Positions 2,038-28,274 of a DNA stretch of 64,000 nt are shown in pieces (the first letter of the stretch is position 1; each line of letters opens with the position of its first letter). This stretch comes from an uncultured Acidobacteriota bacterium (GTDB taxonomy: Bacteria > Acidobacteriota > Terriglobia > Terriglobales > Acidobacteriaceae). The notes below the pieces were generated by a model, which worked only from the letters and a program-made list of their open reading frames with translations, did not search any database and had not been told where the DNA came from. The stretch is from assembly GCA_903832055.1 (NCBI GenBank), contig CAILAC010000017.1, positions 186,001-250,000 on the forward strand. The letters are read 5' to 3'. Both the position numbers and the translations under genes were made by a program.

Positions 2038-2814
2038 TTGAAAACGAAGACCTTAACTCCGACTACTTCCAACTCTGTGCGCGGCCGCAACCGCGACGCC
2101 GCCCCGGAAAAGAAACGCGCGAAGCCCGAGCACGGGACGAGTCTCCTGACCGCCTTCCAGGAGATTCGGGAGCTGATTGTTCACGGTAAGATATCTCCGG
2201 GTACCTGGATCGTAGAGGCAGATCTGGCAGAAAGGCTCAACCTGAGCCGAACCCCGGTGCGCGCTGCCATTCACTGGTTACAGCGCGAGGGTTATGTGCT
2301 TGAGCATCGCAACGTGAGCAAGTCGCGCATGATCGTTGCTCCTCTGACCCGTGAGGATGCCAACGAGCTTTACCGCATCATCGGCCATCTCGAAGGCCTG
2401 GCCGGCCGGGGCGTTGCGGAAATGCCCGAAAAAGAGCGTCTGGAGCTAGGCAAACAGCTCAACGAAGTCAATGAAAAACTGCTGGCCATTGCTGACGGCC
2501 GCGGCGGACCATCGAGCGATATCTTTGACCTGGATCGGAACTTTCATCGACTGATCGTCAAAGCCGGCGCCGGCAACCGGCTCTCAACTCTGCACAGCGC
2601 TATTGAGCCGCAGACTGAGCGTTACTGGCGGCTCTATGCCAGCTCGATCATCAATGCTCTGCACTCCTCAGTCGATGAGCACAAGGAGATTATCCAGGGC
2701 GTCCTGGAGGGCGATGCGGACGCCGTTGAACGAGGACTGCAAAGTAACTGGCTCAAGGGCGCAGAGCGACTCGGCGCAGTCATTGACATGTTCGGCGAGC
2801 GCGGAAGCTGGTAA
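2038..2814 (+). CDS. GntR-family (FCD-type) transcriptional regulator
   Basis: A 258-residue regulator. Residues about 40-105 form the GntR winged helix, with the typical 'LAERLNLSRTPVRAAIHWLQREGYV' pattern (shown only as family resemblance). Residues about 115-240 form the all-helical FCD effector domain with spaced acidic and histidine residues (for example the DRNFHRLIV segment). Members bind palindromes and respond to small carboxylates, sugar acids or amino acids. The start codon is TTG, with AGGG a few bases upstream; no better ATG exists because the next ones are inside the helix-turn-helix. It is convergent with the catabolic operon and is the only dedicated regulator seen in the locus, so it is the best candidate to control it. 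That assignment is inference. Confidence 0.87.
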   Translation: MKTKTLTPTTSNSVRGRNRDAAPEKKRAKPEHGTSLLTAFQEIRELIVHGKISPGTWIVEADLAERLNLSRTPVRAAIHWLQREGYVLEHRNVSKSRMIVAPLTREDANELYRIIGHLEGLAGRGVAEMPEKERLELGKQLNEVNEKLLAIADGRGGPSSDIFDLDRNFHRLIVKAGAGNRLSTLHSAIEPQTERYWRLYASSIINALHSSVDEHKEIIQGVLEGDADAVERGLQSNWLKGAERLGAVIDMFGERGSW

Positions 2815-2848
2815 TTTTCCTGACAAGGAACATACGGTAGCCATTGGT

Positions 2849-5647
2849 TCAGAACTTCGGCCGCAGGATGACTTCGGTTTCCCCAGGGCCGAGCGGAATT
2901 GCATACGCGCCTCGTACCTGCTTCCAATCCTTTTCCGGCTGGTAGCTTTTGGCGGTCGCTGGTTTCACCGGCTGCTCGATTCTAAGGTGGGCCTCCGGCG
3001 TGATGTCGCTGGCACCTTCAAGCGTCAGTTGGACCCTGCCGGTTGCCGGATCAAAGTCAACCCGTTTGAACTTGCCCGCATCCAGTGTCAACCAGAGTCC
3101 TGCGGGAGCCAGATAAAGCCGATTGCGGAAGGAATCCAGCACGGTCACGGAAATCGTTCCATTGTCGTGCTGCAGATTGCCGCCAAAAGCGAGCCATCCT
3201 AGCACCGGATCTCTGACGACATAGGTGGCCGTATTCATCGCATGCCCCCAGAAACCAGAGCCATAGTCGCCAGAGTATGGGTCGAATGCCAGCTTGTCGG
3301 GGAACGAGTGAAAGGCGGCCGAGGCGAACCCTTCCTCATCGATATTGCTCAGCTCGCCCATCGTTCCGCCGTAACCGACGCGCAGCAGATAGAGATTGTC
3401 AGGATGCTCACGGTAGGCGGAGAGCACCGGAATGGCATTGATGCCCGACCCGTAGTGATGTAACTGCCGCTCGAGGCGCTGGATCTTGCCACCATAGATG
3501 AAGTCCCAATAGCGACGCGCACTGCCGTTATAGCCCCAGCTCGGGATCGTTGGATCATAGCCCAGGATCGCGCTCAGGGTAATATCGGCCTTCTCCTGAA
3601 AGCCGAAGTAGTGGGTCCAGGCATAGACCTCTTCCTGACCGGTAGAATCCCACGGCATCTCGCTGCCAAAGGGATACTCTTCGGAGTTCCAATGATCGGC
3701 CCGTTTGCGCATCTGCGACTCGAGGGTCTGCGCTTCTTCGGCAAGCCCTTCACGCTTCAGATCGTCGAGCAGATAGACAAATACATCGCCCTCCATCTGG
3801 CCAAACTGAGTGTAGTACGGGGCAAATTTCATCATCGCCATGGTGGTCTGATAGGCGTGCTCCAGGTACCACTGCCACTCGTGATGGGTGACCAGTCCGG
3901 GATGATTCCGCGCCAGCCGGTACAGAACCCAGTAGGCCGAAGCAACGTGTGGATAGTTAAAGGAACGGTCCACCGCTTCCGATGCTTCTTTGCTCCAACT
4001 GGTCCAACTCTTCCAGTCCTGGTCTGAGCGGTAATAGCCCTCCGGCATTTTGTCTGGCTGGTAGTAGAACAGGCTCTTCCGCACTCCAAATTGGTTGGGC
4101 CCTTCACTGTATTGCAGGTGACCCCAAAGGACGCCGTCCACAAACTGCTCCAATTGGGAGACTTCCTGTTTGTCCGGTGCGCCATACTCTTTCATCACTG
4201 CTGCCAGCCAGGAATCGGAGCCGGCTTCGTCGCCCAATCCAGCGATCCAGACGCGGCTATCCTGCATCACCTTCTCATCTTTTTCCCGATCGTAGCTGAT
4301 GATCCCCGGCGCGCGATGGAAAGGGTCTGCTGGGTCTGCGAGCCACTGCTTTGTGGTTAAGAAGTGCCCCAGGTCCGCGACAGCTTCGCTCTCGGGCTTG
4401 ATCACGCGATAGCTGATGGTCTGCAGAGTGCCGTCGGCATAGGTAATGGACAAGCGGGCCTGGCCCCAGGTGTGACCGGTCAGCCGATAGTTTTTCCATC
4501 CTCCGGGCGTGGTGGCGTCCGGTGTAACACCAATCGCGCCAGCTGGCTCAACCTCAATGGATTGAACCGTTTGAGGATAGTTGAGAAAGAGATGACCTTG
4601 CATATCCCTTGGCAGAATGTAGCCGGGAACGCCAATCGCTACCGGGCGCTTGTTTGCCGCGAGCGTCTTCTCGATGCCCTGAATTGAATCTGAAAGCAGG
4701 AAGCGAACACCATACGTGCGCGATTCGCCCGGTAAAAGAGTTGCTGTGGTCGGCAAATTCCACGGCTTGGCCTGCTTCCATTCCTTGTCCTGATAGGCGC
4801 CACTGTGGACCATCCACTCGTAGAAGCCTTCAAACGTAGTACCGCGCGGCGTGGGGTCGCGGAATATCTCCGGTTTGGCGCTGGACACATCCCGCCCCCA
4901 TCCCTGGTCAAAAATTGGATTGTAGGCCTCAAACGGGCTGTGTCCGTCGGGCACAACCAGCAGTGCCGGGCCCTTGCCATTGAGCCGGGTCACTTGCAGA
5001 TACCCGGCATCCTCGCCAATATAGGGGTCATAGAAGCTGCAAAGGGCATGCGCCTGCTCCAGCGAACGGTCATTGATGACGTTGTTGAAGATCATCGGAA
5101 TACCGAGCGAGCCGATCTCAAGCGGATGGTCGCTGGTATTGGTCAGCGTAAAGCGCAGCGCCAGCCCGTTTCCGCTTTGTGCCCAACTACGAACAATGCG
5201 CAGGGGAATATCGGCGGGAAGCGTGGGAGCCAGATCGGCCGAGGCCAGCAACTCTCCGGAAACAGGCAGCGGCTTGACCGGAGTGCGGGCCAGTGCAGTT
5301 GAGTAGCTGGTCCAGTCCCCGTCTTTTGACGTACGCAGACGCAGATCGATGTCGCCGAGGTGGTAGTAGCCATTTGGCGAACGCTGAACAAGCAGATCGC
5401 CGGGAGTAAAGTCGAATCCGCTCGCCGCATGTGACTTCGGCAACAGGGCGGCGACTGTCTGCGACGAATGGACGAGTTTCAAAGTGAATCCTGGCGTCTC
5501 CAGCGTGTCGATTCCACCCTTGAGCATGGGCCCGGGAACGGGCACTGGTTTGGGTGGCTCCTGGGCCGCGCCGTCACCTGCGCCGGCAACCAGGCAGGCG
5601 GCGATGGCAAGGTTGAGGAAGACTGGGCTTTGCCGCAAAATACGCAT
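2849..5647 (-). CDS. exported DUF5695-like protein, possible carbohydrate-active enzyme
   Basis: A 932-residue secreted protein that I recognise only at the level of a DUF5695-like family. An N-terminal signal peptide (about residues 1-28, ending in an alanine-rich segment) follows the chosen start. GAGAGG sits upstream of 5647, whereas a longer reading from 5710 would bury the signal peptide. The first 430 residues look beta-rich. From about 450 the sequence becomes helical and tryptophan/tyrosine-rich with repeated HxxW and YxxxxGxxxG patterns, which suggests an alpha/alpha-barrel of the kind used by glycosidases and lyases. It is the last gene of the minus-strand series that begins with the hydroxyproline genes. 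No catalytic residue can be assigned. Confidence 0.72.
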   Translation of the reverse strand: MRILRQSPVFLNLAIAACLVAGAGDGAAQEPPKPVPVPGPMLKGGIDTLETPGFTLKLVHSSQTVAALLPKSHAASGFDFTPGDLLVQRSPNGYYHLGDIDLRLRTSKDGDWTSYSTALARTPVKPLPVSGELLASADLAPTLPADIPLRIVRSWAQSGNGLALRFTLTNTSDHPLEIGSLGIPMIFNNVINDRSLEQAHALCSFYDPYIGEDAGYLQVTRLNGKGPALLVVPDGHSPFEAYNPIFDQGWGRDVSSAKPEIFRDPTPRGTTFEGFYEWMVHSGAYQDKEWKQAKPWNLPTTATLLPGESRTYGVRFLLSDSIQGIEKTLAANKRPVAIGVPGYILPRDMQGHLFLNYPQTVQSIEVEPAGAIGVTPDATTPGGWKNYRLTGHTWGQARLSITYADGTLQTISYRVIKPESEAVADLGHFLTTKQWLADPADPFHRAPGIISYDREKDEKVMQDSRVWIAGLGDEAGSDSWLAAVMKEYGAPDKQEVSQLEQFVDGVLWGHLQYSEGPNQFGVRKSLFYYQPDKMPEGYYRSDQDWKSWTSWSKEASEAVDRSFNYPHVASAYWVLYRLARNHPGLVTHHEWQWYLEHAYQTTMAMMKFAPYYTQFGQMEGDVFVYLLDDLKREGLAEEAQTLESQMRKRADHWNSEEYPFGSEMPWDSTGQEEVYAWTHYFGFQEKADITLSAILGYDPTIPSWGYNGSARRYWDFIYGGKIQRLERQLHHYGSGINAIPVLSAYREHPDNLYLLRVGYGGTMGELSNIDEEGFASAAFHSFPDKLAFDPYSGDYGSGFWGHAMNTATYVVRDPVLGWLAFGGNLQHDNGTISVTVLDSFRNRLYLAPAGLWLTLDAGKFKRVDFDPATGRVQLTLEGASDITPEAHLRIEQPVKPATAKSYQPEKDWKQVRGAYAIPLGPGETEVILRPKF

Positions 5648-5810
5648 ACTTAAAACGGCCTCTCTTGCCTTGCTGAATCGCACTCCCTGCCCCCGCATAC
5701 CCTGGGACAAGGAGTGGAAAGCAATGCTTGGTTTATGCCTTTACACCTGAAGTCGGCTGGCTTGAGACAAAATTCTGAACGGACGAGCAACCGTGGCCGC
5801 CGGCAGTGGA

Positions 5811-8111
5811 TCAATGCGCTGCCTGTGACGCGTTCCAGTTCGGCGTCTCCTGGCCAATAAGGTTATGCACAAAAAAGTCTTCCAGCTTGCGTTGCCCGTA
5901 CTCCCCGCCTGCTCCATGGCCGCCACCGGGCACATAGAAGAGGTCGAAATCCTTGTTCGCCTTGATCAACCGGTCTGCCACCTGAAAGGTTGAGGCTGGA
6001 TCGACATTCTTATCCATTTCCCCGACGACCAGCATTAGCTTGCCTTGCAGGCGATAGGCATTGTCCACATTTGAGGACTCAGAATATTGCGGCCCAACCG
6101 GCCAGCCCATCCACTGCTCATTCCACCAGATCTTGTCCATCCGGTTGTCATGGCATCCGCTATTGGAGACGGCGACCTTGTAGAACTCCGGATGAAACAG
6201 CAGCGCACCCATCGCGCTCTGCCCACCCGCGGAGGTTCCAAAGATGCCCACGCGCGATATGTCGTACCAGGGATACTTTGCCGCGGCCGCCTTATGCCAA
6301 AGAATCCGATCCGGGAAGCCCGCATCCTTGAGGTTGTGCCAGGCCACGTCGTGAAAGATCTTTGATCGATTATTGGTGCCCATGCCATCCATCTGCACCA
6401 CGACAAATCCCAGCTCGGTAAGCCGCTCAGTACGGGTCGTGAAAGTCTTGGGTACAAACGAGCCCTGTGGACCAGCGTAGATGTCTTCAATCACCGGGTA
6501 TTTCTTCTTGGGATCAAAGTTGGCCGGCTTGTAGATCACACCCCAGATATCGGTCTTATGATCGCGCCCCTTGGCAACAAAGACCTCGGGTGGGTGCCAC
6601 CCTGCCTCGATGAGCTTATGGATGTCTCCCTTTTCGAGGACCATCAATTGCTGGTTATCCTGAACGCGATAGAGGGCCATCGTGGGTGGCATATCAATTC
6701 TGGACCAGATATCCACGTAGTATTTGCCATCTTCGGAGTATTCCAGGTGATGGTTGCCATCGCCTTCGGCAAGCGGCGTCAAACCCGTTCCGTCAAAGTT
6801 GATGCGATAGGCATGAACAAAGTAAGGATCCTCACCGGGTCGCATGCCGCTGGCTTCAAACCATATCTGGCGCTTTTCATCATCCACCCGATTAACGGCA
6901 CGGACGACCCACTCGCCCCTGGTGATCTGGTTCTTCACCTGGCCGGTCTTGCCATCCAGCAGGTAGAGATGCGCCCACCCGTCCCGTTCGCTCATCCAAA
7001 CGATCTCTTTCCCATCGGCCACATCATGACGGTAAACCTTGCCGGTGTCGTACTGGTTCATCACCAGTGGCCGGTAGTCGATGAAGGTATTGCTCTCTTC
7101 GGAGATCAGGCTGTGCGCTTTACCCGTGGCTGCATCGACTTCAACGACTCGATAGACCTGGTGACCGCGCTGATTGTACTCAAAGGTGAAGCCGCGGCTG
7201 TCTTTCCACCAGACCGGGTCAGAGATTCCAAAGGCGTTGGGAAACGTCTCGTTGCTGACGATGATCTCTGACTTTGCGGCGACATCAAACAGCACCGGCT
7301 GCTCCACTGCAAGTACATCGCCGGCCTTGGGATAAACCATCGAAGGATAGTCCGGCTGCAACTGATTGGCAGGCGAAGACTCAATATAGTGAATTACCCG
7401 GCGATGCCCTGGAAGGATGCGGTAAGCCACGAAATGCTTTGAATCTGGCGACCAGACAATGGTTTTGGGAGCGTAGTAGTTCCCTTCTGACCCATCCGTA
7501 CTGAGTACAATTGGCTGCGTCGATCCCTTTGCGCGCACCGCCACGTTGTAGTTCAGCACATAAGCATCCCATTTGCCGTCGGGCGACGGGACTGTATGCG
7601 CATCGCCGTTCAAAGCCCTGGGCGTGTCATCATAATCGTCATCGGAATCGTACTCGTCGTCGCCGGGTTGCAGTGTGCTGGCCTTTGAACAGATGTAGCT
7701 GGTAAGGTCGCAGTGCCAGCGGGCGTTCTGGAGCAGAAACTCGACGGCTCCCCGCTTCTCCACAAACCGGAAGCGTGGAAAGGGCAGTGCCAGCGGCTTG
7801 TATTCTGTGCCAGAAGCCTTGGTGAGAGCCGCCGCGAGCTTTGCTGGATCAAACGGGGCCTGCCGCGTCTGATCCTCGGCATTGACGAGGACGAATTCGT
7901 GCCCGCCTTCGACCGACTTCCGGTAGACAAACGCATCCCCTCCCTCAATCCAAAACGGCGGCTCAGGGATGTTGACCGCCAATTCGGCGAAGTCCTTGCC
8001 CACCTTCGCCGCGCGTTCATAGTCTGATGTTTTTACCTGAGCACCGGACTGAGCTGCTGTCAGTACCGCCCACATTGAAAGAGTAATTCCCAGCATGTGT
8101 CCTACTCGCAT
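5811..8111 (-). CDS. S9-family prolyl peptidase (DPP-IV-like), exported
   Basis: A 766-residue peptidase of the prolyl oligopeptidase family. A short signal peptide is followed by a DPP-IV-type beta-propeller (about residues 60-490) and a C-terminal alpha/beta-hydrolase domain (about 510-750). The nucleophile elbow reads GTSAGGQ (Ser), the acid is in the GEMDKNVDP segment, and the histidine is in GGGHGAGG. Family members remove X-Pro dipeptides or cut after proline in the periplasm. The start at 8111 has GGAG five bases upstream, and a GTG at 8126 is the less likely alternative. Placed beside hydroxyproline catabolism genes, it would provide the peptide-trimming step for proline/hydroxyproline-rich substrates. 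That linkage is inference. Confidence 0.9.
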
Positions 8112-8174
8112 CGACTCTCCATCCACTCCGTTTCTTCTGTCTTATTCCGCTTGATACCGCTGAAGGAAGGTTCC

Positions 8175-10583
8175 TCAGGCATAGGTACAGACCACGACGA
8201 ATTCCTTTTGATTTCCGGTTTCAAACTGAACCGAATCCTTTTCCAGAACCGTTTCCGTATCCTGACCTGATGGTCTCTTGGTGCCTGCCAACTGAGCTGG
8301 CTGGCCGTTGACGGTGGCCGATTGCAGCCTCTTCGTGCGCGGCAGGCGCAGCTTGCAATGCACCTCCTTCGGGGCGCCAGAATCAAAATGCACCTTTGCC
8401 GTGACCTGGTTGGGCGCATCCGCAATCATGTGAAAGCTGACTCGCCCCCAGCGTGTCGGTGCCTTCTCGATTCGAATCTCCTTGCCTGAGGTCACCCACT
8501 CCCGAGGTAGCCCCTTGGCTAGATACAGTCGGTCTACATCGGAATCCTCAAGCACCAGCATCCATCGCACGAGCAGCGGAATCGTCTGTTGCGCTGGAAT
8601 GCAGAAAAGGGCTGTGCTCCCGGTGATGCCCGCGACCTCCCCGGCCGTCCAACTACCCCGGCTGTGATCGTGATACCGGTGAGCGTAGAGAAACAGCAGG
8701 AACTCTTCAATGCGGTCGAGCCGCAGCAGCATCTGCGCGTAGCCATACGAGATGAAGCCAAGAATGTCGCGTCCATCGGCATGCGCCGGCTCCACGTTGG
8801 CCACGATGCCCAGCGTGGTTGCGCCATAAGCGCGCATGCAGTCAATGACCACGCTGGCCAGGTCAGTGGGCAGAATGTCTGCCTGCAGCAGTTCTGCATA
8901 CGCCCGATGCGGCCAGCCCTGCGGGCTGGGGTGTTCGGTGGCCATCGACTCGCGAAAGGTAAGCTGGGCTCCGGGCAAGGGTCCGATGTATGGCGGGTTC
9001 AACTCATGGCGAACACTGCCGCGCACACTCGCCACCACAGCTGACGCTAACTGGTCAGCATGCCGCAGCCAGACTCCCGCAGGCTGCTCCCATCCCAGAG
9101 TTTTCCATGCAGTAGCCAAATCACGAAGTCCGCGCGCCGCAAACGCGCTGTTCGAAAAATAAGGCCGCCACCAGATTTCGGGCTTTGGCATCAGGCAGGA
9201 GTCGGACTCGCTCCAGCCATGGATCAGGCCATAGCCCGTATCCTCCTTTGGCAACCGCAGGCTCTCCTCGTGCATGGCGGTCAGAATTGCCGCGGTAGCC
9301 TCAAACTTTGCGCGGTGCTTCTGCAGCAGTGCGCGATCCCCGGTGTAGTGGAAGTAACGCGCGATCAGCGAAAGCGTCAGGCCGAACTGCGCCGTCTCCG
9401 GGCCGCGCATGTTGATCATCCCCCGGGCATCCACAAACTCGGAGTAGTAGTTGTCCAGCACATCGCGGGCCATCGCAAAGCGACCCCATTCCAGATTGGT
9501 AAAGAGCGCGCTGGTGAAAATATCCTGAAATCCGTCATACTCCGGCCCGTAATAGTCCCGGTCCACGGCACCATACTTGGGATAAACTCCTCCCGGCCGT
9601 ACGATCAACTCCTTGGCGAAGGCATGCCGCGCCATGTCTACCCAGGACGGATCGGGCAGAGCAACCTCAACAGCATCGCGCAGCTGATGCTGCCAATATT
9701 GCGTGAACTGAAGCAGGGCGGCGTAAAACTCTTCTGCGGAGGGGTCCAGCCGGGCCGGCGGAAATGCAGGATAGCTGTAGCCGTACTGAACTCTGACCAT
9801 CTTTCCGTTGCGAATCCGCGCCGTACGGTGCCAGGTCTGCACAACGAATCGGCCAGTCGTCTGCACGTCGGCAAAGACAATCACCTCGTCATATCCATTC
9901 GGATCATCCTGCGCGGGAAAAACTTTCCGCACCGCCGGCAGCCATCCTCCCAGCAGCCCTTCATAGCGATGCGCGGCCGCAGCCTGGTCAATCTCGGGAA
10001 GGTATTGCACTGGATGGTAAGTGCGCGTGCTTCCACTGGGATAGACGGGCATCGTGTCGAAACACTCCCGGGTTCCGACGATGGTGTTCCACTGCGGCCG
10101 CTCGTTGGGATCGGTGGGCTTTTCCGAGGCCATTGGCGGCGCGGCTGCCTTCACCTGCTCAGGATCGGGATCACCATCGCGAAGCAGGCGATCGGCCAGC
10201 AGATCCGGGCCAGCCATGCCAATGTCGCTCAGCTTCAGCCCCAACCACGGCGGATTCGCATCGGGAAAAGTGGCCTCCACCCGCTTGGCCAACTGCAGAC
10301 CGCGGCCATCCGGGCTTACCAGTGTGATTGCCCCGTCATGGTTGCGCAGGTCTTCGTAGACCTTCCAGTTGCCTGGCTGCGCTCCTGACTCGAAGCTGGT
10401 CAGCAGGGTGTGCCCAGCCGTGTCCAGTTGCCCGGTCTTGACCCAGGCAAAGGCTTCTTCCTTTGCCTGCGCGGCGGGCACCCCGCCCTCGGCATCGACC
10501 TCGATGGCAAGGCCGTTCATCGCCACCCCGGCGACCGCCAGACTCTGCAGAAATTTGCGACGATCCATCCAGTTTTGCCCCAT
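8175..10583 (-). CDS. Tat-exported protein of unknown function, probable alpha/alpha-toroid enzyme
   Basis: An 802-residue protein that I do not recognise by name. It starts with a twin-arginine signal (MDRRKFLQ at residues 6-13) and an Ala-rich hydrophobic segment, so it folds before export. Residues about 50-330 look mixed. Residues about 330-690 have the helical, aromatic-rich repeats (WxxxxMARDVL, YFHYTGDRALL, GWSESDS) seen in alpha/alpha-toroid glycosidases. About 700-802 is a beta domain with a 'VNGQPAQL' turn like those closing glycoside hydrolases of such folds. The gene lies between two exported peptidase genes on one strand and has its own promoter-like region with the TTGTATACAA motif. 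A role in glycan removal from peptides is plausible but unproven. Confidence 0.68.
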   Translation of the reverse strand: MGQNWMDRRKFLQSLAVAGVAMNGLAIEVDAEGGVPAAQAKEEAFAWVKTGQLDTAGHTLLTSFESGAQPGNWKVYEDLRNHDGAITLVSPDGRGLQLAKRVEATFPDANPPWLGLKLSDIGMAGPDLLADRLLRDGDPDPEQVKAAAPPMASEKPTDPNERPQWNTIVGTRECFDTMPVYPSGSTRTYHPVQYLPEIDQAAAAHRYEGLLGGWLPAVRKVFPAQDDPNGYDEVIVFADVQTTGRFVVQTWHRTARIRNGKMVRVQYGYSYPAFPPARLDPSAEEFYAALLQFTQYWQHQLRDAVEVALPDPSWVDMARHAFAKELIVRPGGVYPKYGAVDRDYYGPEYDGFQDIFTSALFTNLEWGRFAMARDVLDNYYSEFVDARGMINMRGPETAQFGLTLSLIARYFHYTGDRALLQKHRAKFEATAAILTAMHEESLRLPKEDTGYGLIHGWSESDSCLMPKPEIWWRPYFSNSAFAARGLRDLATAWKTLGWEQPAGVWLRHADQLASAVVASVRGSVRHELNPPYIGPLPGAQLTFRESMATEHPSPQGWPHRAYAELLQADILPTDLASVVIDCMRAYGATTLGIVANVEPAHADGRDILGFISYGYAQMLLRLDRIEEFLLFLYAHRYHDHSRGSWTAGEVAGITGSTALFCIPAQQTIPLLVRWMLVLEDSDVDRLYLAKGLPREWVTSGKEIRIEKAPTRWGRVSFHMIADAPNQVTAKVHFDSGAPKEVHCKLRLPRTKRLQSATVNGQPAQLAGTKRPSGQDTETVLEKDSVQFETGNQKEFVVVCTYA

Positions 10584-10611
10584 GTGCGTTGGAAACCCAA
10601 AAGTAGGTGGA

Positions 10612-14267: not shown

Positions 14268-14293
14268 CCCTGTCACCAATGGGCCTGCCTTCT

Positions 14294-20299: not shown

Positions 20300-20389
20300 G
20301 GTCTCCTGAGATTACTGGAAAGGCGCCAATCCCCCATATACATCCCGACAGGCATCAAGCATCACGTCAGCCTCCTGTGGGTAGCTTGG

Positions 20390-20620
20390 TTAGAACGCCA
20401 GCTGCAATCGAAACTGAATGTCCGGTGAACTTCCGGAGTCCAGGCCTCGGGATTTGTCTGGTTGCCGGGACAACAGTGGTATTGGTTCCGGTAAAGTACT
20501 GCGCCGGATTGTTGGTGCTGTCAGAGTAGCCATCAAACCCAGACCAGGCAGGATGATTGAAGAGATTCGGTATCGCGAATTGAAAAATGCAGTTTGACCA
20601 TCTGAGCTGAAATGGTTCAA
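20390..20620 (-). pseudogene. remnant of the C-terminus of a TonB-dependent receptor
   Basis: Two reading frames on the minus strand share one family signature. One frame gives an 'IPNLFNHPAWSGF' stretch followed by a QIP segment, and a second frame ends in SPDIQFRLQLAF and a TAA at 20390-20392. C-termini with FNHPxW...QFxLxLxF are typical of the Oar-like TonB-dependent receptors that are abundant in Acidobacteriota. At least one frameshift separates the halves, and everything upstream is missing because the GH127 gene occupies that DNA. I read it as the broken 3' end of an outer-membrane receptor that may once have imported the glycan products. Confidence 0.55.
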
Positions 20621-23565
20621 GCCTGCGACTGGATCCAGACCTTGGACTCAATCTTGCGTCCGTGGTGGCGCCCCTCCGTCGAGTTTGGCGGTATCGTTGA
20701 TCCCTGAAAAGCCGACCCTGCGCTTCCGGCAGGTCTTTTCTTTTTGCTGCTATGAGTCGTCGCACCGGGGGCGTAATTCACCGTGTCATCGCCCGCGACA
20801 TCAGATCGGCTCTGCGCTACGCGGTTCATACGCGCGTAGTTGGGAATAGCGAGCATCGGTGTTCCATCCTGCCACTTGCCCTTGATCACCATGATGCCGC
20901 CGAGGAGTTCAGGCCGCCACTCGACTTTAAGCGGTTCGCTGCTCAAGGCCAGATCGAGGTTCGGTTGATCGGCAGTCTCTACATTGTAGATAAGCGGGCC
21001 ATATTGCAGCGCCAGCAGATTCGCATCTGCCTTGATGCGCGCATCCGGCTTGATGCGCTGCACTTCCATTGGCAGTTCAAGTTCGATGGTATCGCCCCGC
21101 TCCCAACGGCGCGTGATCACTGCGTACCCCTTGACGATTTGCGGCGTCACCGGCTCTCCGTTCACTGCAAGCCGTGTTAATCCGTCAACCCTGGGAGTGG
21201 TCGTATAAAGCTTTGAGGTCGAGCGATTGGGCACACGCACGTGCACGCTGAATGTCTTTGCTTCTTCTGGGTTGATCGTAATCGCAACTGAGCCCTTCCA
21301 CGGATACTCAGTCTTCTGCACCACCTGCACGTCGGTGCCAGCGATTTTGCCCACATTCACCCGTCCACCGATAAAGAGGTTCACATGCAGCGCATCCGGC
21401 CCCTTCGTGTAGCTCCACGTAGGCACCATCAAGAGCGTGCGCGGAATATTGCCCACGCAGCACGGGCAAACATGCCACGGGGTGCGCTCCGTGTTGACCA
21501 GCGGATTGGTATAGCAGAAGTTCCTGCCCTGCATGTCAACCGCACCAAACAGAGCGTTATACATCGTCTGCTCGTATAGATCCGCATACTTGGCGTCGTG
21601 GTAAGCGAGATTCATCTTGTACTGGAAGAAAACAAGCCCGCAGCTCGAACAAGACTCGCAATAGGCTTCGTTGGGCAGGGAGTAGTTCGGGCCAAAGCCC
21701 TCTGAGGTCTCACCGCTGCCGATACCGCCGGTCACATAAAACTTCTTGTTGACCATGTTTTCCCACAGCGAGAGAACAGCGCTCTGGTAATCCTGGTCGC
21801 CCGTCTCGGCCGCTATGTCAGCCATGCCGGAGTAGAAGTAGGTCGCGCGCACGGCGTGCCCCACTGCTTCGTACTGTTGGATGGGCGGCAAATGGCTCTG
21901 ATCGTACTCCTGCCCGCCGCGGCGTGAATCCAGAAGGAACTTCGCCAGCTTGATATAGCTGTCGCCACGTCCCTTACCCTCTGTGTCATTGACGAATCGG
22001 CCAAAGCGAACCAGTGCCTGCTCCATTTCCTGGTGGCCGTCGAACCAATCCTTCCGACCGGGCCCGATGTTGGCAACCCAGCAATCGGCAAGCTTCTTGG
22101 CTGCGTTGTAGAGGCGCAGATCACGCCCGTCGGTCAGGGTATAGTGATTGATCGCTGACTCGATGAAGTACCCTGCAACATATCCCTCGTGGTTGCCACG
22201 ATGCTCAGGCGACCAGCGTTCAGGCCACTGTTTGCGGTCGGCGAGCGTATATGCCGTCTGAAGATATCCATCGGGTTCCTGGGCAGCCAGAATGATCGGA
22301 ATCCACTTTTCAAGCGTGACCTTCATTGCCTCCTGCGCGCGCTCGATCTCCGCGTCTCCCTGCGGATCAACCATGAGCGCAATGCACATGGATTCAACAG
22401 TCTGGTGGATCCAGGCATTGGAAAATACATAGCCTTTGTGGCTGCCATGCGACTCACCGCGCAGGGCCTTGCCGGCCTCAATGAAGTTGTCGAGACCGCC
22501 TTCCCCCAGCTTCAAATCAGTGCGTTCGCACTGTGCAATGCAATGAGGTATCCAATCGACGATGAGAGTCTTCGCGCGCTCGTTCCACATCTTGTTGTCG
22601 ATCGAGTAACGGGTGGTGTAAACCACGTTCAGCCGCTCCCTCGGAGGGGCTTCTTCAACCTGCACGATGAGCTTTGACGTGCTGTTTTCCTTGTCGCCAA
22701 ATGCAGTGATCTCGAGCTCATATTGGCCCGGCTCAGAAAATGTCACAGTCGAATCGCTTTTCGCCGCATCGGCAAAGACTACCTGACCCGGTCCTGAGAT
22801 CTTGCTCCAGAGCACACTGGACGCTGCCGTCGGCTGAAGCCAATCGGCCCTGCCGGAGAGATAGCTCTTGCCACCCAGTACCACGGCGCGATCCACTCCA
22901 GCGTCGACTCGCGGCGGAAAAAGCGGCCCCGGGCCGCTGCTATAAACCTTCCACTCAAGGATGCCGGTGGAGTGAGTGCCATCCGAGGCGATTTCCACAC
23001 GCAGCTTGTCTGTCTTGATTGCATCAAAAGAGGAGCTGTTGAAGGCATTCGGAGCGACACCCAGTCCTTTGACATGCGGGACGGGGACAAATTCTGATCC
23101 GTTCCAGTAAGTCACGCGATATGACCCCGGTGCGCCGACACCCTGGCCGTCAACCCACCAGTAGACTTCCACACGATTGGTGGTGACAGGCTTGCTCCAC
23201 TCATACTGCACCCACTGCGTGTCGGTGTGCGGCCAGTTGCCGTAGCTGCCGTGATCCTGGTCGCCTGAGTTGGCGGGATCAAAACCGTCGTTCAGTGCCG
23301 ACAGTTTGGTATCCCCGGAGATATAGGAGGCAGAAGCCGTAGCTACCTTTGCCAGATTTACCGTGAGGTCGGCCTCGACCGCAGCGAACGCTTTCGAGCG
23401 GCCAACGGCTGAGAACAAGGCGGTGCCCGCGACTCCAGCTAAAAACTTCCTGCGGTTGACGGCGGCGCCATACACCGGCGACTCCTGGTTCTTTCCGACA
23501 GACGGCTCTATTGAACCTTCGGCCCCGCTGATTGAAAATCGCTCCCCGTCATTCACTGGCTTCAT
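20617..23565 (-). CDS. GH127-type beta-L-arabinofuranosidase (DUF1680), Tat-exported, multidomain
   Basis: A 982-residue protein. A twin-arginine signal lies near residues 38-60, a discoidin-like carbohydrate-binding domain at about 65-210, an Ig/PKD-like domain at about 215-305, and the DUF1680 catalytic toroid at about 310-900. The zinc-cysteine active site of the HypBA1 type is present: Glu622 (candidate acid/base, GETSEGFG), Glu637 and Cys639 (CESC), and the CPCC motif at 700-703 with the likely nucleophile. Family enzymes release beta-L-arabinofuranose, notably from hydroxyproline-linked arabino-oligosaccharides. From about residue 940 the tail is lysine-rich and low in complexity, and is encoded by a terminator-like sequence, so the native stop may be lost. 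Confidence 0.88.
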   Translation of the reverse strand: MKPVNDGERFSISGAEGSIEPSVGKNQESPVYGAAVNRRKFLAGVAGTALFSAVGRSKAFAAVEADLTVNLAKVATASASYISGDTKLSALNDGFDPANSGDQDHGSYGNWPHTDTQWVQYEWSKPVTTNRVEVYWWVDGQGVGAPGSYRVTYWNGSEFVPVPHVKGLGVAPNAFNSSSFDAIKTDKLRVEIASDGTHSTGILEWKVYSSGPGPLFPPRVDAGVDRAVVLGGKSYLSGRADWLQPTAASSVLWSKISGPGQVVFADAAKSDSTVTFSEPGQYELEITAFGDKENSTSKLIVQVEEAPPRERLNVVYTTRYSIDNKMWNERAKTLIVDWIPHCIAQCERTDLKLGEGGLDNFIEAGKALRGESHGSHKGYVFSNAWIHQTVESMCIALMVDPQGDAEIERAQEAMKVTLEKWIPIILAAQEPDGYLQTAYTLADRKQWPERWSPEHRGNHEGYVAGYFIESAINHYTLTDGRDLRLYNAAKKLADCWVANIGPGRKDWFDGHQEMEQALVRFGRFVNDTEGKGRGDSYIKLAKFLLDSRRGGQEYDQSHLPPIQQYEAVGHAVRATYFYSGMADIAAETGDQDYQSAVLSLWENMVNKKFYVTGGIGSGETSEGFGPNYSLPNEAYCESCSSCGLVFFQYKMNLAYHDAKYADLYEQTMYNALFGAVDMQGRNFCYTNPLVNTERTPWHVCPCCVGNIPRTLLMVPTWSYTKGPDALHVNLFIGGRVNVGKIAGTDVQVVQKTEYPWKGSVAITINPEEAKTFSVHVRVPNRSTSKLYTTTPRVDGLTRLAVNGEPVTPQIVKGYAVITRRWERGDTIELELPMEVQRIKPDARIKADANLLALQYGPLIYNVETADQPNLDLALSSEPLKVEWRPELLGGIMVIKGKWQDGTPMLAIPNYARMNRVAQSRSDVAGDDTVNYAPGATTHSSKKKRPAGSAGSAFQGSTIPPNSTEGRHHGRKIESKVWIQSQA
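20714..20745. terminator. terminator-like hairpin inside the 3' end of the GH127 gene
   Basis: GACCCTGC and GCAGGTC enclose a seven-base loop and are followed on the plus strand by TTTTCTTTTT. On the minus strand the A-run precedes the same hairpin and a short TTTT follows it. It would normally lie beyond a stop codon, but here it is translated as part of the GH127 C-terminus. Confidence 0.45.
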
Positions 23566-23949: not shown

Positions 23950-23978
23950 TTGACAAATAATGCATTATTGGATACAAA
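23950..23978 (+). promoter_or_regulatory. sigma-70-type promoter with a palindromic spacer, GH146 gene
   Basis: A consensus TTGACA at 23950-23955 is separated by 17 bases from TACAAA at 23973-23978. The spacer begins with AATAATGCATTATT (23956-23969), a perfect 14-bp palindrome, so a dimeric regulator could sit between the promoter boxes. The coding start is about 95 bases downstream. Confidence 0.6.
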
Positions 23979-24071
23979 CGCTTAGGGTTTTGCCCTGATA
24001 GCCTGTCACACCTGCATGCCCCTCCCACAGCGTGCAGATATTCCATCAGCGGATGAGCAAAGGATCATTAG

Positions 24072-26456
24072 ATGAATACCAATCGTCGTGAATTCCTGAT
24101 TGGTGCGGCAGCAGTAGCGGCCGGAAGTGCCACGCCCACCCTGGCACGCGCCGCTGGCACCCCAGTACTTCCGTCCTCGGCAAAACCGCTGCCGTTAGCA
24201 TCGGTGCGCCTCACTCACTCCGACTACGCTACCGCGGTTGAAGTGAATCGCACCTACCTGTTGAGTCTCAGTGCCGACCGGTTGCTGCACAATTTCATGG
24301 TGTACGCTGGCCTCCCCTCCAAGGGTGAAATCTACGGGGGCTGGGAGAGCGACACGATCGCCGGGCATACATTAGGTCACTACCTTTCGGCTCTGGTGTT
24401 CACGTATCAACAGACGGGAGATACAGCCTGCCGCGAGCGCGCAGACTACATCGTTGCAGAATTGGCTCGCGCCCAGGCCGCTCGCGGTACCGGCTACGTC
24501 GGTGCCCTCGGCAGGAAGCGCAAAGACGGCAAAATCGTGGACGGCGAAGAGATATTCCCTGAGGTCATGCGCGGGGAGATTCGTTCAGGCGGTTTTGATC
24601 TCAACGGCTCGTGGTCGCCGCTTTATACAGTCCACAAGCTGATGGCCGGACTGCTCGATGTACATGCGGCCTGGGGCAACCCGGTCGCGCTTCGGGTCGT
24701 CACAGGCCTGGCGGAGTACTTTGCGCATGTCTTTGCTGCGTTGAACGACACCCAGATGCAGCAGATGCTGAACACGGAATATGGCGGATTGAATGAGAGC
24801 TTTGCTGAGCTTTCTGCCGCGACAGGCGACAAGCGCTGGCTTGAAATCGCGGAGCGCATCTACGACCACAAGGTACTCGATCCGTTGGTTGCCGGGCAGG
24901 ATAAGCTCGCAAACTTTCACGCGAATACGCAAGTTCCGAAGCTGATCGGCCTGGCTCGCATTCACGAGCTGAACGGGAAGCCCGATCCGGCACGTGCGGC
25001 AGATTTCTTCTGGTCCACCGTGACTCAGCATCATTCCTACGTCATCGGCGGCAACGCAGACCGGGAGTATTTCTCAGCGCCCGACACCATCGCCGAAAAC
25101 ATCACCGAGCAGACCTGTGAGCACTGCAATACCTACAACATGTTGAAGCTTACGCGCCACCTGTACAGTTGGAAGCCGGACGCCGCTTACTTCGACTACT
25201 ACGAGCGTGCTCACCTGAACCATGTGATGTCGGCACAGAATCCACGGACCGGCGGCTTCACGTACATGACGCCCCTGATGACCGGTGCTGAACGTGGCTA
25301 TTCAACGCCAAAGGAAGACAGTTTCTGGTGTTGCATTGGCACCGGCATGGAAAGCCATGCCAAGCATGGTGAGTCAATTTTCTGGGAAGGTGACGGCACG
25401 CTCCTGGTGAATCTCTACATCCCGGCTGAAGCGACCTGGGCAACCCGGAATGCCACTTTGAAGCTCGAAACCAAGTATCCGATGCAGCCTGAGTCCAGCC
25501 TCAAGTTGACCCATCTGCCCATGCCTGCCAGTTTCGCTATTGCCATGAGGATTCCTAACTGGGCCAAAGGCAAGGCTGACGTGTCGGTGAATGGCAAGCC
25601 TTTTGTCCCGGGCCTGACGAATGGTTATGCTGTCGTTAACCGGCGCTGGAAACAGGGCGATGTGGTGGCAATCACGCTACCTCTCGAACTGCGCCTCGAA
25701 CCCACCCCCGGTGATGCAAATACCATCGCAGTTCTGCGCGGACCGATGGTGATGGCAGCCGATCTCGCACCCGTCTCACAGCCTTGGGACAGCCCTGACC
25801 CAGCCATGGTGGGCGAGGACATTCTCAGTGGTTTCAAACCCTCTGCCCAGCTTGAGCGCGTCTCCTACGAAACGAAAGGCGTCGTGCGCCCTGCAGATCT
25901 CACCTTTGTTCCCTTCTACAGCCAGTATGAGAGGCGAAGCGCCGTGTACTTCAAGCGCTTCAGTGAGGCTCAATGGAAAATCGAGGAGGCTGCGTTTCTG
26001 GCAGATCAGGCGCATCGGCGCGATATTACGGCGCGCTCGGTGGATGTCATGCATCTAGGCGAGATGCAGCCGGAGCGAGACCACAACCTCGCCTCCGATA
26101 TCTCCTACCCTGTAACGTATCGCGGGCGAAACGGGCGCGACGCACGCTCTGGCGGCTATTTCGAATTCACCATGCAGACCAGGCCCGGACAGCTCGCCCT
26201 GATGGCTACCTACTGGGGCGATGAAAACGGCCAGAACTTCGACATCCTCGTCGATGGTGTGCTCATAGCTTCGCAACAGCTCAAGAATGACAAGCCGGGC
26301 AAGTTCTTCGACGTTGAATACCCCGTGCCCGAGGCACTCACCAGGGACAAATCAAAGATCACGGTACGCTTTGTCCCGCACAATCACTCCACCGCTGGAC
26401 CGGTGTTTGGCGTTCGCCTCTTCACGGCAAAACCAGCTGCGGAATCCGCAAGCTAG
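24072..26456 (+). CDS. GH146-type beta-L-arabinofuranosidase (DUF1680), Tat-exported
   Basis: A 794-residue protein with a twin-arginine signal (NRREFLIG at residues 4-11). The DUF1680 toroid spans about 50-540. The metal/nucleophile signatures are EHCNTYN near residues 350-356 and FWCCIGTGME near 417-426, the form seen in GH146 rather than the shorter GH127 HypBA1 form. A beta-sandwich follows (about 545-620), then a C-terminal region resembling the DUF4986/DUF6805 modules of this family (residues about 680-790, GQLALMATYWGDE). GH146 members cleave beta-L-arabinofuranosides of plant cell-wall glycans. It diverges from the GH127 gene across a 506-base shared promoter region. Confidence 0.88.
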   Translation: MNTNRREFLIGAAAVAAGSATPTLARAAGTPVLPSSAKPLPLASVRLTHSDYATAVEVNRTYLLSLSADRLLHNFMVYAGLPSKGEIYGGWESDTIAGHTLGHYLSALVFTYQQTGDTACRERADYIVAELARAQAARGTGYVGALGRKRKDGKIVDGEEIFPEVMRGEIRSGGFDLNGSWSPLYTVHKLMAGLLDVHAAWGNPVALRVVTGLAEYFAHVFAALNDTQMQQMLNTEYGGLNESFAELSAATGDKRWLEIAERIYDHKVLDPLVAGQDKLANFHANTQVPKLIGLARIHELNGKPDPARAADFFWSTVTQHHSYVIGGNADREYFSAPDTIAENITEQTCEHCNTYNMLKLTRHLYSWKPDAAYFDYYERAHLNHVMSAQNPRTGGFTYMTPLMTGAERGYSTPKEDSFWCCIGTGMESHAKHGESIFWEGDGTLLVNLYIPAEATWATRNATLKLETKYPMQPESSLKLTHLPMPASFAIAMRIPNWAKGKADVSVNGKPFVPGLTNGYAVVNRRWKQGDVVAITLPLELRLEPTPGDANTIAVLRGPMVMAADLAPVSQPWDSPDPAMVGEDILSGFKPSAQLERVSYETKGVVRPADLTFVPFYSQYERRSAVYFKRFSEAQWKIEEAAFLADQAHRRDITARSVDVMHLGEMQPERDHNLASDISYPVTYRGRNGRDARSGGYFEFTMQTRPGQLALMATYWGDENGQNFDILVDGVLIASQQLKNDKPGKFFDVEYPVPEALTRDKSKITVRFVPHNHSTAGPVFGVRLFTAKPAAESAS

Positions 26457-26621
26457 GGGACCGTGTGACCGACCCGTTGCTTTGACTTGCTTCCCTCGAC
26501 GACGCCGAGGCAGAGCAGTTGAACCCGGCGATGAGTCGGCCGTCGGTCAATGGAAGGCGCAACCCCTGGTTTGGTCAAGACTGAGGAATCAGGGAAATCT
26601 GCAGCGACTTGTACTGCAGAT

Positions 26622-28274
26622 TTATGGGGCTGCGCAGGCGCTGGCATCTGCGGGCGGACCGACGCGCGTGGAGGGCAGGGCAGCCAATGGCGTCAGCGCC
26701 TCCCACTCCTCCACTGCGACCGCAGCGTAGTGTCCTTCGCTTCCCGAGGCGTTGAAGACTGCACGTAAGCACTGTGTTTCGAGCTTGGGAAAACTTACAT
26801 CAAGGAATGTTTGCATCGGACTCGTCGGGTATGCCTTGACTCCCGGCACAGCGGTCCAGACGCCTTGACGCATGTACTCGAGATGCCAGCTTGCCGGCGG
26901 AGCTACGCCTTCTGACGCACCTGCCCGATGATCGGCCCAGAAAACGATGCGCACCCCGTTCAAAGTTACGGGCTGCGACCAGGTGTACTCAATCCATTGG
27001 CCGGAAGGGTTCTGGTCTGACCAGCTGCCCCACATGTCTGGCGGCAGAGGGTTTGGCCGAACAATGCCGTCATTCAGTGATTTGATCCAATACTGCAGGG
27101 GCACGGGCTCGTTCGAGGCCGATGCGTGCGCAGCCATGGCGACGTTACGAGTAGCCGCAGCGGGCGGTTGTGGTTCCCGGCTCGGTGTCACCTTCAACAT
27201 CCGCGCTGGCTTGGTGCTGTCATCCCACTCGATGCGGTCGATTGCGACGCTGCGTCGGAAGTGACCTCCACCTTTTGCATCTGCGGTGTGATAGACGAGG
27301 TACCACTGCCCTTTGAATTCGATGACACCCGGGTGCGAAGTTGTGGACGAAACAGGATCGAGAATCACCCCCTGGTAAGTCCACGGGCCCAACGCAGAAC
27401 TCGAGGTTCCATAAGCAATGCATGCGTGGTACACGGCAGGCGTGCAGGGAGAGTTCGGTCCGGCCTGATTGTCGGCGTAAACCATATAGTATGTATCGCC
27501 GCGGCGGAAGAGCCACGCTGCCTCAAAGAAGCCCGTCAGCGAGCGCACGGTGACAACCGGTCCTTTGGGTGTGACCATGTCACGCTCCAGCTCGACGCCA
27601 CGCAGTTCTCCGAAGGTTCCCCAATAGAGATAGACGCGGCCATCCTTGTCCACCATCACCGTGGGATCGATGTTCTGGATATTGTTTGCTACAGGCAGCG
27701 ACTGCGAAACGATGGGGCCGGAGGGATGCGCATCCTTCCAGGGACCGAGCGGGCTGTCGGAGACGGCGACGCCGATCACGAAAGGGTCGCGATGCTCTGG
27801 CTTGCCTTCCTGAACGGGGGCGTACAGATAGAATCGGCCGTCGGGGCCTTGCACAATCTGTCCAGCATAGGCGTGGCCAGCCTTGGACCATGCAAACACC
27901 GCCTCCGGCCGAGCGATGTTGGGATAGTGCTGCCAGATGTGTGAATCGACATTTTTCGTAGCGAAGATCTGCCATTCGTTCATCACGAAGTCATTCTGTT
28001 TCGTTCGAGCCTGATCCCGACCGGCCAGAATGTAAAGCGTGTCGCCTGTGACAACAGGTGCCGGGTCAGCGGAGTAATACGAGCCGTCTGAAAGAATCGG
28101 GTTGCCTGCACCGTGAATGATCTCCGGAGACAACAGCTGCGCCTGCGCACTCATAAACGGCAAAGCGAATGCCCCGGCCAGCACAAACAGAATTACAACA
28201 ACAGCATGACAGAGGCGACTTGAGCGGCTTGGATAGCGTAGCGGCAAGAAACTCACCCTTTCCTGAAGGCACAT
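26622..28274 (-). CDS. GH43-like glycosidase with C-terminal discoidin-type domain
   Basis: A 550-residue secreted protein. A hydrophobic signal segment (about residues 20-45) follows the ATG at 28274. A five-bladed propeller of the GH43/GH117 clan then shows the three acidic positions: YSADPAP (general base region), NIDPTVMVD, and the glutamate in GFFEAAWLFRRGD. Residues about 385-520 form a discoidin/F5-F8-like carbohydrate-binding domain ending in VAVEEWEAL. GH43 members are mostly alpha-L-arabinofuranosidases, arabinanases and xylosidases, which fits the two neighbouring arabinofuranosidase-type genes. The exact linkage cannot be read. It is on the opposite strand to the GH146 gene, ending tail to tail. 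Confidence 0.87.
   Translation of the reverse strand: MCLQERVSFLPLRYPSRSSRLCHAVVVILFVLAGAFALPFMSAQAQLLSPEIIHGAGNPILSDGSYYSADPAPVVTGDTLYILAGRDQARTKQNDFVMNEWQIFATKNVDSHIWQHYPNIARPEAVFAWSKAGHAYAGQIVQGPDGRFYLYAPVQEGKPEHRDPFVIGVAVSDSPLGPWKDAHPSGPIVSQSLPVANNIQNIDPTVMVDKDGRVYLYWGTFGELRGVELERDMVTPKGPVVTVRSLTGFFEAAWLFRRGDTYYMVYADNQAGPNSPCTPAVYHACIAYGTSSSALGPWTYQGVILDPVSSTTSHPGVIEFKGQWYLVYHTADAKGGGHFRRSVAIDRIEWDDSTKPARMLKVTPSREPQPPAAATRNVAMAAHASASNEPVPLQYWIKSLNDGIVRPNPLPPDMWGSWSDQNPSGQWIEYTWSQPVTLNGVRIVFWADHRAGASEGVAPPASWHLEYMRQGVWTAVPGVKAYPTSPMQTFLDVSFPKLETQCLRAVFNASGSEGHYAAVAVEEWEALTPLAALPSTRVGPPADASACAAP

Follow-up and report, generated by a model that had tools for sequence, protein, structure and literature searches.

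The locus described here raises the question of which substrate would bring a trans-4-hydroxyproline (Hyp) catabolic pathway, peptidases and arabinofuranosidase-type glycoside hydrolases (GH) together in one stretch of bacterial DNA. The window, which is the whole stretch of 64,000 nucleotides that was analyzed, corresponds to positions 186001-250000 of contig C17 in the 4.57 Mb genome of an uncultured Acidobacteriota bacterium, and the locus, including an amino-acid permease and a GH43 gene, spans window positions 370-28427. Judged from sequence, the locus is probably a utilization system for plant hydroxyproline-rich glycoproteins (HRGPs), a reading held with fairly good confidence. Three observations carry it: the Hyp genes form an overlapping operon, they recur beside a gene for a DUF5695 protein in several phyla, and in some of these loci the epimerase is replaced or joined by an enzyme of a second Hyp route. 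HRGPs are plant cell-wall components that are hard to digest. If the reading holds, the locus would be a genomic marker for bacteria that recycle HRGP carbon and nitrogen, and two uncharacterized protein families would become direct enzyme candidates.

Genomes of the family and phylum samples are labeled G### (G000 is the source genome of the window) and fetched loci L###. The features of the locus are given below; coordinates from the epimerase to the deaminase use refined starts, and the aldehyde dehydrogenase keeps its open reading frame (ORF) as listed.

370-1896, plus strand: amino-acid permease (AA_permease_2), candidate for Hyp uptake (Pfam PF13520, 5e-55)
2038-2814, plus strand: transcription factor of the GntR/FCD type, which may regulate the locus (Pfam PF07729, PF00392)
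2849-5710, minus strand: DUF5695 protein, predicted exported carbohydrate-active enzyme, remote relative of polysaccharide lyase family PL27 (PF18951, 1311.6 bits)
5811-8126, minus strand: S9 DPP-IV-like peptidase, predicted exported (PF00326, 6e-43; PF00930, 1.6e-40)
8175-10583, minus strand: U802, a protein of 802 amino acids (aa) with a twin-arginine translocation (TAT)-type N-terminus and a predicted six-hairpin-glycosidase-like fold, matching no Pfam family
10736-12514, minus strand: DUF885 protein, which we take to be a putative metallopeptidase (PF05960, 1.9e-43)
12666-14279, minus strand: aldehyde dehydrogenase, candidate alpha-ketoglutarate semialdehyde dehydrogenase (PF00171, 2.1e-46)
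14294-15226, minus strand: DHDPS-family protein, candidate pyrroline-4-hydroxy-2-carboxylate deaminase (PF00701, 1.9e-54)
15223-16554, minus strand: FAD/NAD-binding subunit of a candidate cis-4-hydroxy-D-proline dehydrogenase (PF07992, 3.6e-27)
16551-16799, minus strand: small [2Fe-2S]-type dehydrogenase subunit, 82 aa (ORF and cysteine motif read directly)
16792-17934, minus strand: DAO-family FAD subunit of the dehydrogenase (PF01266, 2e-66)
17931-18887, minus strand: 4-hydroxyproline 2-epimerase, HypE (PF05544, 5e-95; NF052296, 421.7 bits; PDB 2azp, 3.6e-114)
19307-20299, minus strand: polysaccharide-deacetylase-family protein whose N-terminus has a signal-like stretch; its gene separates HypE from GH127
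20617-23565, minus strand: GH127-type beta-L-arabinofuranosidase with a weak N-terminal F5/8-type match and a TAT-type N-terminus (PF07944, 3.7e-68)
24072-26456, plus strand: GH146-type beta-L-arabinofuranosidase with a TAT-type N-terminus (PF07944, 9.4e-121)
26622-28427, minus strand: GH43, candidate alpha-L-arabinofuranosidase (PF04616, 5.5e-35)

Pfam matches and ORF reading placed every gene named in the original prediction at or near its expected position. Neighboring genes from HypE through the deaminase overlap by 4-8 bases at all four junctions, and the minus-strand run continues through the aldehyde dehydrogenase, DUF885, U802, S9 and DUF5695 genes with gaps of approximately 15-155 bases. 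The same-strand continuation into a DUF885 protein, an S9 peptidase and two large exported proteins was therefore as described, and the latter two could be identified as DUF5695 and U802. The glycoside hydrolases said to flank the pathway (GH127, GH146 and GH43) are present, but they lie beyond HypE on both strands and form no part of the Hyp operon. The permease and the regulator are at the opposite end of the locus.

Hydroxyproline genes and their neighbors across genomes

The window HypE carries both cysteine motifs, MCGHG and SPCGTG, which supply the two catalytic cysteines of 4-hydroxyproline epimerases, where 3-hydroxyproline dehydratases carry Cys/Thr. All 15 relatives examined have SPCGTG, and 14 of them also MCGHG; the exception is a 239-aa fragment. 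The best PDB match was PA1268 (2azp), and NF052296 was the highest scorer among the six superfamily models listed. The aldehyde dehydrogenase exceeded the cut-off of none of the 25 NCBIfam models listed, and the FAD/NAD-binding subunit matched a soxA-type subfamily far under its cut-off.

The family sample comprised 100 genomes, including the source genome, which were searched for HypE (E 1e-20), DUF5695 (E 1e-10) and PF07944 (E 1e-20), and 40 stretches around the places found were read. Expected numbers were computed throughout for uniformly placed genes, with no correction for shared ancestry. HypE was found in 28 genomes, DUF5695 in 10 and PF07944 in 49. Of the 28 HypE genomes, 8 had a PF07944 gene no more than 25 kb away from HypE, as against 0.75 expected (Poisson p 1.3e-6), and in 6 of the 10 DUF5695 genomes the distance between DUF5695 and HypE was at most 20 kb (G000, G066, G098, G059, G092 and G024). 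In the others the two genes were on separate contigs (G033, G036) or approximately 2.3 Mb apart (G047), or HypE was absent (G030). Recurring companions included a GH27 alpha-galactosidase-type gene in G066, G098 and G092 (grouped as one family by BLAST; the G066 copy by Pfam, with 1uas as its best PDB match), a GH51 gene in G098, and TonB-type receptors of approximately 1300 aa, one of which was confirmed by Pfam (OMP_b-brl_4). Deaminase relatives in HypE loci were 62-75% identical to the window protein. GntR/FCD copies near HypE were 62-77% identical in G098, G058, G017, G088 and G052, and copies 72-73% identical were found in G238, G328 and G366. Pieces of the permease were 78-83% identical in the G098 HypE locus, and S9 relatives 55-61% identical were found in the DUF5695/HypE loci of G066 and G098 and beside HypE in G047.

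The phylum sample comprised 297 genomes, of which 21 matched PF18951 at E 1e-20; 15 of these matches were full-length (more than 1200 bits) and six scored lower. A Pro_racemase-family gene, a family-level match that covers more than proven epimerases, was present in all 15 full-length DUF5695 genomes versus 73 of 282 others (88 of 297 overall; Fisher p 4.8e-9, or 1.6e-8 without the source genome). It lay within 20 kb of DUF5695 in 8 of the 15 (G000, G066, G098, G179, G238, G328, G366 and G376) against an expectation of 0.16, although the G376 racemase was just 32% identical to a Bacteroidota epimerase reference. In G179 the genes for HypE, the DAO and FAD subunits, the deaminase, the aldehyde dehydrogenase, S9 and DUF5695 stand in a row. 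A chance neighborhood was rejected, since the linkage counts far exceed the uniform-placement expectation.

DUF5695 was then used as the anchor across phyla. The best-scoring 80 of at least 566 confirmed candidates were taken with up to 10 kb on each side, and all frames were searched; as the best-scoring part of a longer list, these loci are non-random and lean towards close relatives. The loci contained PF07944 (39), HypE (18), a TonB-type receptor (17), S9, permease and DAO (16 each), U802 and deaminase (15 each), aldehyde dehydrogenase (13), GH27 (11), DUF885 (10), GH31 (9), GH51 and a second DUF5695 type (8 each), GH43 (7), AraB and SusC (6 each), AraA, AraD and a glycyl-radical dehydratase (4 each), and M24 peptidases (3). 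The M24 peptidases, of the prolidase/aminopeptidase-P type, were in L144, L184 and L192 (three by BLAST, two by Pfam, under the NCBIfam cut-offs). HypE or the dehydratase occurred in 21 of the 80 loci (23 with deaminase-only loci added), an arabinofuranosidase-type gene (PF07944, GH43 or GH51) in 45, AraA, AraB or AraD in 7, Hyp and arabinofuranosidase-type genes together in 13, and any marker in 55. Of the PF07944-type matches, 36 of 39 align over at least 250 residues; those in L113 and L178 are short, and that in L181 is possibly just the discoidin-like part of the GH127 reference. Dropping these three leaves 42 arabinofuranosidase-type loci, 12 of them also with Hyp genes, and 53 with any marker. 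Among the carriers of Hyp genes are members of the Acidobacteriota, the Bacteroidota (e.g., Mucilaginibacter and Pedobacter) and the Verrucomicrobiota (L179, L187), the sphingomonad Hephaestia mangrovi (L190) and a Gemmatimonadetes bacterium (L186), the last by no more than a single HypE match of 33% identity. The conserved linkage that had been put forward as a check was thus recovered: Acidobacteriota repeatedly carry HypE, GH146-type, S9 and DUF885 genes as neighbors, and the same linkage, with DUF5695 as the common partner, extends to Bacteroidota, Verrucomicrobiota and the sphingomonad.

In four of these loci a glycyl-radical dehydratase unrelated to the epimerase replaces or joins HypE. 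The enzymes beside or near DUF5695 in L126, L129, L135 and L181 all passed the cut-off of 1100 bits of the trans-4-hydroxy-L-proline dehydratase model NF043068 (1304.7, 1314.1, 1297.7 and 1208.3 bits, respectively), and the L126 enzyme had 6vxc as its best PDB match. A radical-SAM activase accompanies the glycyl-radical enzyme (that of L126 scored 378.7, under a cut-off of 425), and L129 carries HypE alongside the dehydratase. Because two families for one unusual amino acid occur near DUF5695, this is the strongest argument that trans-4-hydroxyproline is what such loci deliver. Epimerases from L163 and L182 passed the 4-hydroxyproline epimerase model (589.7 and 604.7 versus 376 bits). L182, from Mucilaginibacter sp. 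MD40, joins Hyp and L-arabinose pathways around DUF5695: it holds a deaminase, an aldehyde dehydrogenase, HypE and a DAO-type oxidase as well as AraA (826.2 versus 622) and ribulokinase AraB (715.3 versus 428) above equivalog cut-offs and AraD (346.5 versus 257) above a subfamily cut-off. L163 combines SusC, deaminase, aldehyde dehydrogenase, HypE, permease, DUF5695, GH51, GH146, DUF885, DAO and aldose epimerase genes; the gene after SusC had no NCBIfam match at 1e-15. Extensin arabinosides would yield arabinose and hydroxyproline, as would arabinogalactan proteins (AGPs), the latter with much galactose.

Several findings weigh against an HRGP substrate, and some of them would suit ordinary catabolism of free Hyp or collagen-like peptides, beside which enzymes for arabinan or pectin happen to lie. 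In the family sample 20 of the 28 HypE genomes, some on short contigs, had no PF07944 gene within 25 kb, and the Hyp pathway often stands alone. A nearby racemase-family gene was missing in 7 of the 15 full-length DUF5695 genomes: the two genes were on separate contigs in G292, G107, G149, G350, G330 and G226 (in G107 and G149 DUF5695 sits at the edge of its contig) and approximately 1 Mb apart in G242. Among these unlinked genomes, a GH146-type gene lay near DUF5695 in G226, G242 and G330, accompanied by AraB and AraD in the first two; G292 had a weak GH51 match, and the fetched stretches of G350, G107 (8.6 kb) and G149 held no marker. The racemase family occurred in three of the six lower-scoring DUF5695 genomes. 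No Hyp, arabinofuranosidase or arabinose marker was found in the fetched stretch of 25 of the 80 loci, some of these absences being due to contig ends, because eleven loci are shorter than 12 kb. The window HypE narrowly misses the curated NF052296 cut-off of 450 bits. The relatedness of DUF5695 to PL27 (see below) suggests uronic-acid chemistry, which Hyp-arabinosides lack, and arabinose use is uncertain in the source genome, where L-arabinose isomerase AraA (PF02610) is absent in a search whose control was positive in 5 of 14. S9 and DUF885 are, moreover, broad families. Against ordinary catabolism stand the linkage in several phyla, far above the uniform-placement expectation, the replacement of the Hyp route and the L-arabinose genes in some of the same loci, and we regard it as unlikely.

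The DHDPS-family protein and the aldehyde dehydrogenase could also serve oxidative L-arabinose breakdown, in which case the locus would chiefly handle arabinose or combine both routes. Both the oxidative L-arabinose and the Hyp routes use a DHDPS-family enzyme and a semialdehyde dehydrogenase and pass through alpha-ketoglutarate semialdehyde, where an oxidative arabinose route would join the Hyp pathway. The missing AraA and two IlvD/EDD-family genes elsewhere in the genome (contigs C10 and C16) are consistent with such a route, which is possible in this organism. In the window, however, both genes follow the epimerase and the three-subunit dehydrogenase, with ends overlapping up to the deaminase, and no arabonate dehydratase of the IlvD/EDD family was found there, so that assigning the two genes to arabinose appears quite improbable.

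DUF5695, U802 and the predicted glycan

The PF18951 match of the window DUF5695 protein, against a cut-off of 25.2 bits, covers profile positions 1-853 of 857, and its closest named relatives by identity, among the matches listed, were from Acidobacteriaceae and other Acidobacteriales. Cultured carriers of the family include Granulicella mallensis as well as Mucilaginibacter and Pedobacter strains. An AlphaFold model was built from 64 sequences (pLDDT 89.7, pTM 0.89), and Foldseek returned a sole strong match, the PL27 L-rhamnose-alpha-1,4-glucuronate lyase BACCELL_00875 (5no8, 5nok; for 5no8, E 2.1e-30 and target TM-score 0.82), the next matches having E 2e-7 and poor TM-scores. A profile search likewise matched the 5no8 protein alone (E 2.6e-14), each of its three stretches being weak singly, and a single-sequence phmmer search against PDB gave nothing at E 1. 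With an identity of approximately 15%, DUF5695 appears to be a remote relative of PL27 by detectable homology and a common predicted fold, and it is not filed as a PL27 member. BACCELL_00875 is described, in the available text, as a beta-sandwich joined to an (alpha/alpha)6 barrel (PMC8377490). The match of the predicted DUF5695 fold to a lyase of plant glycoproteins speaks in favor of an HRGP substrate. Residues R582, Y586, E684, N728 and Y753 are invariant across the 64 DUF5695 sequences and H752 nearly so; all six face identical 5no8 residues in the profile alignment and may be catalytic. A spurious ORF was rejected for DUF5695, as codon-position divergence (0.24/0.18/0.57) was fastest at the third position. 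Separately, a relative approximately 24% identical (DUF5695b, 1064-1351 aa), one region of which is similar to the discoidin-like portion of GH127/GH43 proteins, occurs in L128, L130, L140, L142, L150, L153, L170 and L186.

U802 had no Pfam, NCBIfam or PDB phmmer match, placing it in none of the known GH families searched by sequence. In its model (pLDDT 68.2, pTM 0.77), an alpha-hairpin region stands between a beta region at the N-terminus and a beta domain at the C-terminus, and Foldseek matched GH78 (E 7e-8) and GH127 (approximately 4e-6) with low TM-scores; because the model is of moderate quality, this indicates a fold class only. The 15 relatives inside the 80 DUF5695 loci were 53-63% identical, and matches in 25 of the 100 family genomes were mostly partial or approximately 25% identical. 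The possibility of a spurious ORF was rejected here as well (0.32/0.21/0.62, third position fastest). We tentatively propose, with slightly less than even confidence, that a hitherto undescribed class of loci, spread over several phyla, consumes HRGPs whole, glycan and amino acid alike, with DUF5695 as its core enzyme. DUF5695 would then be a new carbohydrate-active family, a distant relative of PL27, that cleaves glycan at or near Hyp, and U802 a second new six-hairpin glycosidase family acting on the same substrate.

Among the arabinofuranosidase-type genes, 20617-23565 passes the cut-offs for the PF07944 catalytic, middle and C-terminal domains (230.7, 69.5 and 31.7 bits) and matches 6ex6 (7.8e-100) and the GH127 structures 4qjy (3e-91) and 3wkw (8.3e-55). 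The original prediction had emphasized this gene; it is present, but GH127 is the least conserved partner, seen in just L124, L169 and possibly L181 of the 80 DUF5695 loci, and most of the 39 loci with a PF07944-type gene carry the GH146 type. The window GH146 matches 5opj (8.2e-141), which we take to be the GH146 enzyme BT0349, and Bll3HypBA1 (8k7x, 2e-51; also 8k7y), all of which rank above GH127 chains; these are sequence matches to GH146 enzymes, and the substrate of the window enzyme is a prediction. Its relatives near DUF5695 are 58% identical in Hephaestia (L190) and 52% in G330 (L203). The window GH43 best matches the beta-xylosidase/alpha-L-arabinofuranosidase 3qed (1.6e-49); copies 65% identical lie near HypE in G066 and G328, and relatives 64-73% identical occur in six DUF5695 loci (L146, L150, L151, L153, L159 and L170). 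A 577-aa ORF of G066 was rejected as an unknown gene, being antisense to the GH43 copy there. PF07944 has seven matches in the source genome, spread over six frames; the window holds three of these frames.

An extensin-type substrate had been proposed. HRGPs remain the best reading, and extensin itself is less certain, the only solved relative found for DUF5695 being a PL27 enzyme, a family described as acting on gum arabic. The substrate could instead be an AGP or gum-type glycoprotein, a variant rather than a denial of HRGP utilization, in which a PL27-like DUF5695 would take rhamnose or another sugar off glucuronate caps, and GH146, GH127, GH43, GH51 and GH27 would trim side chains before Hyp catabolism. 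According to the available texts, PL27 enzymes free rhamnose from gum arabic (PMC8377490), the Araf-beta-1,3-Araf of AGPs is a substrate of a bifidobacterial GH146 (PMC10850190), and GH43, assigned at family level and common in DUF5695 loci, includes exo-galactanases (GH43_24). The low DUF5695-PL27 identity speaks against this variant, as does a Pfam scan of 59 ORFs picked by hand from 131 unassigned ones in the Bacteroidota and one Rhodothermia DUF5695 loci. These matched 83 families (single-member ones are hidden), and dedicated galactanase, rhamnosidase and unsaturated-glucuronidase families are missing from the 25 commonest. The lack of the galactanase and unsaturated-glucuronidase families from this list slightly favors Hyp-arabinosides of the extensin type over AGP glycans; the argument is weak, because GH43 itself includes galactanases and rare families are hidden. 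An AGP-type substrate is accordingly a serious possibility, to which we give appreciably less than even chances.

Proposed pathway and relation to known systems

As predicted from the gene families, exported GH146, GH127 and GH43 enzymes, probably with DUF5695 and U802, would strip arabinose-rich glycans from the HRGP, and two peptidases, the exported DPP-IV-like S9 enzyme and the putative DUF885 one, would then cleave the bared Pro/Hyp-rich peptide. The permease would import Hyp, which HypE would convert to cis-4-hydroxy-D-proline, the presumed substrate of the three-subunit dehydrogenase. Deamination would yield alpha-ketoglutarate semialdehyde, and its oxidation alpha-ketoglutarate. The GntR/FCD regulator may control the locus.

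Systems that remove sugars from HRGPs are known in Bifidobacterium and Xanthomonas (PMC6085000). HypBA1/HypBA2/HypAA of Bifidobacterium longum and Xanthomonas XCV2724/2728/2729 include GH127 and GH43 enzymes that act on Hyp-linked arabinofuranosides, and a frameshifted prolyl-oligopeptidase gene stands alongside the Xanthomonas cluster (PMC6085000). Of the GH127, GH121 and GH43 genes that make up a HypBA-type HRGP cluster, the analysis of the window covered GH127 and GH43, and both are present. In the available text these systems are described for sugar removal, whereas the window locus adds Hyp catabolism, transport, a regulator and two uncharacterized exported families. Another GH146 is, by the title of its report, the last enzyme removing oligoarabinofuranosides from HRGPs. 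Genome-neighborhood networks of 4-hydroxyproline epimerases likewise describe an epimerase-centered Hyp pathway (PMC4113996); in the main text of that paper, the terms glycosid, arabin, extensin, plant and collagen occur 0 times and peptidase once, for a Bacilli cluster. For Latescibacteria, HRGP degradation with GH127 opening extensins was proposed from single-cell genomes, and Hyp catabolism and DUF5695 were not found in the portion of text examined (PMC4454575). Some Bacteroidota DUF5695 loci carry SusC (L163, 612.8 versus 368.25 bits) and SusD families, as in SusCD loci, whereas the acidobacterial receptor scanned is of the OMP_b-brl_4 TonB type, with a similar one just outside the window.

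Searches of the open-access literature found no report of a locus that combines HRGP deglycosylation and Hyp catabolism, none of 4-hydroxyproline epimerase together with extensin, and none of trans-4-hydroxy-L-proline dehydratase with a plant glycoprotein; DUF5695 was found, in the texts available, solely in work on fungal velvet regulators. In the available texts the enzymes described for HRGPs concern their sugars; a recurrent locus that couples sugar removal to Pro-directed peptidases and to two unrelated Hyp pathways would serve as the genomic marker mentioned above.

Neighboring genes and minor observations

To the left of the window, a TonB-type receptor (G000:C17:179017-182976; L206:13017-16976) is 40% identical to the receptor beside the G066 HypE, and a GH27 (G000:C17:155145-156494; L208:9145-10494) is 60.6% identical to the G066 GH27; the locus may therefore extend past the window. 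The polysaccharide-deacetylase-family protein had a 43-bit match in one of the 80 DUF5695 loci. A protein cluster whose one scanned representative is an FG-GAP/ASPIC-UnbV repeat protein, often with TPR-type proteins, occurs in 11 of the DUF5695 loci (L114, L116-L118, L120, L121, L126-L128, L134 and L143), and three ORFs without a Pfam match (L073:7273-8994, L083:17197-18960 and L080:13102-14709) are possible artefacts.

Within the window, approximately 30 kb from the locus, a third PF07944 gene (58457-60316, minus strand) adjoins a second amino-acid permease gene (57067-58407, minus strand), and no Hyp gene was seen beside it within the window. A cytochrome gene at 43004-44680 (minus strand), with MtrC/MtrF-like and cytochrome c7/c3 domain matches, may point to extracellular electron transfer. 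A eukaryotic-type carbonic anhydrase gene (33362-34261, minus strand) adjoins that of S-adenosylmethionine synthetase.

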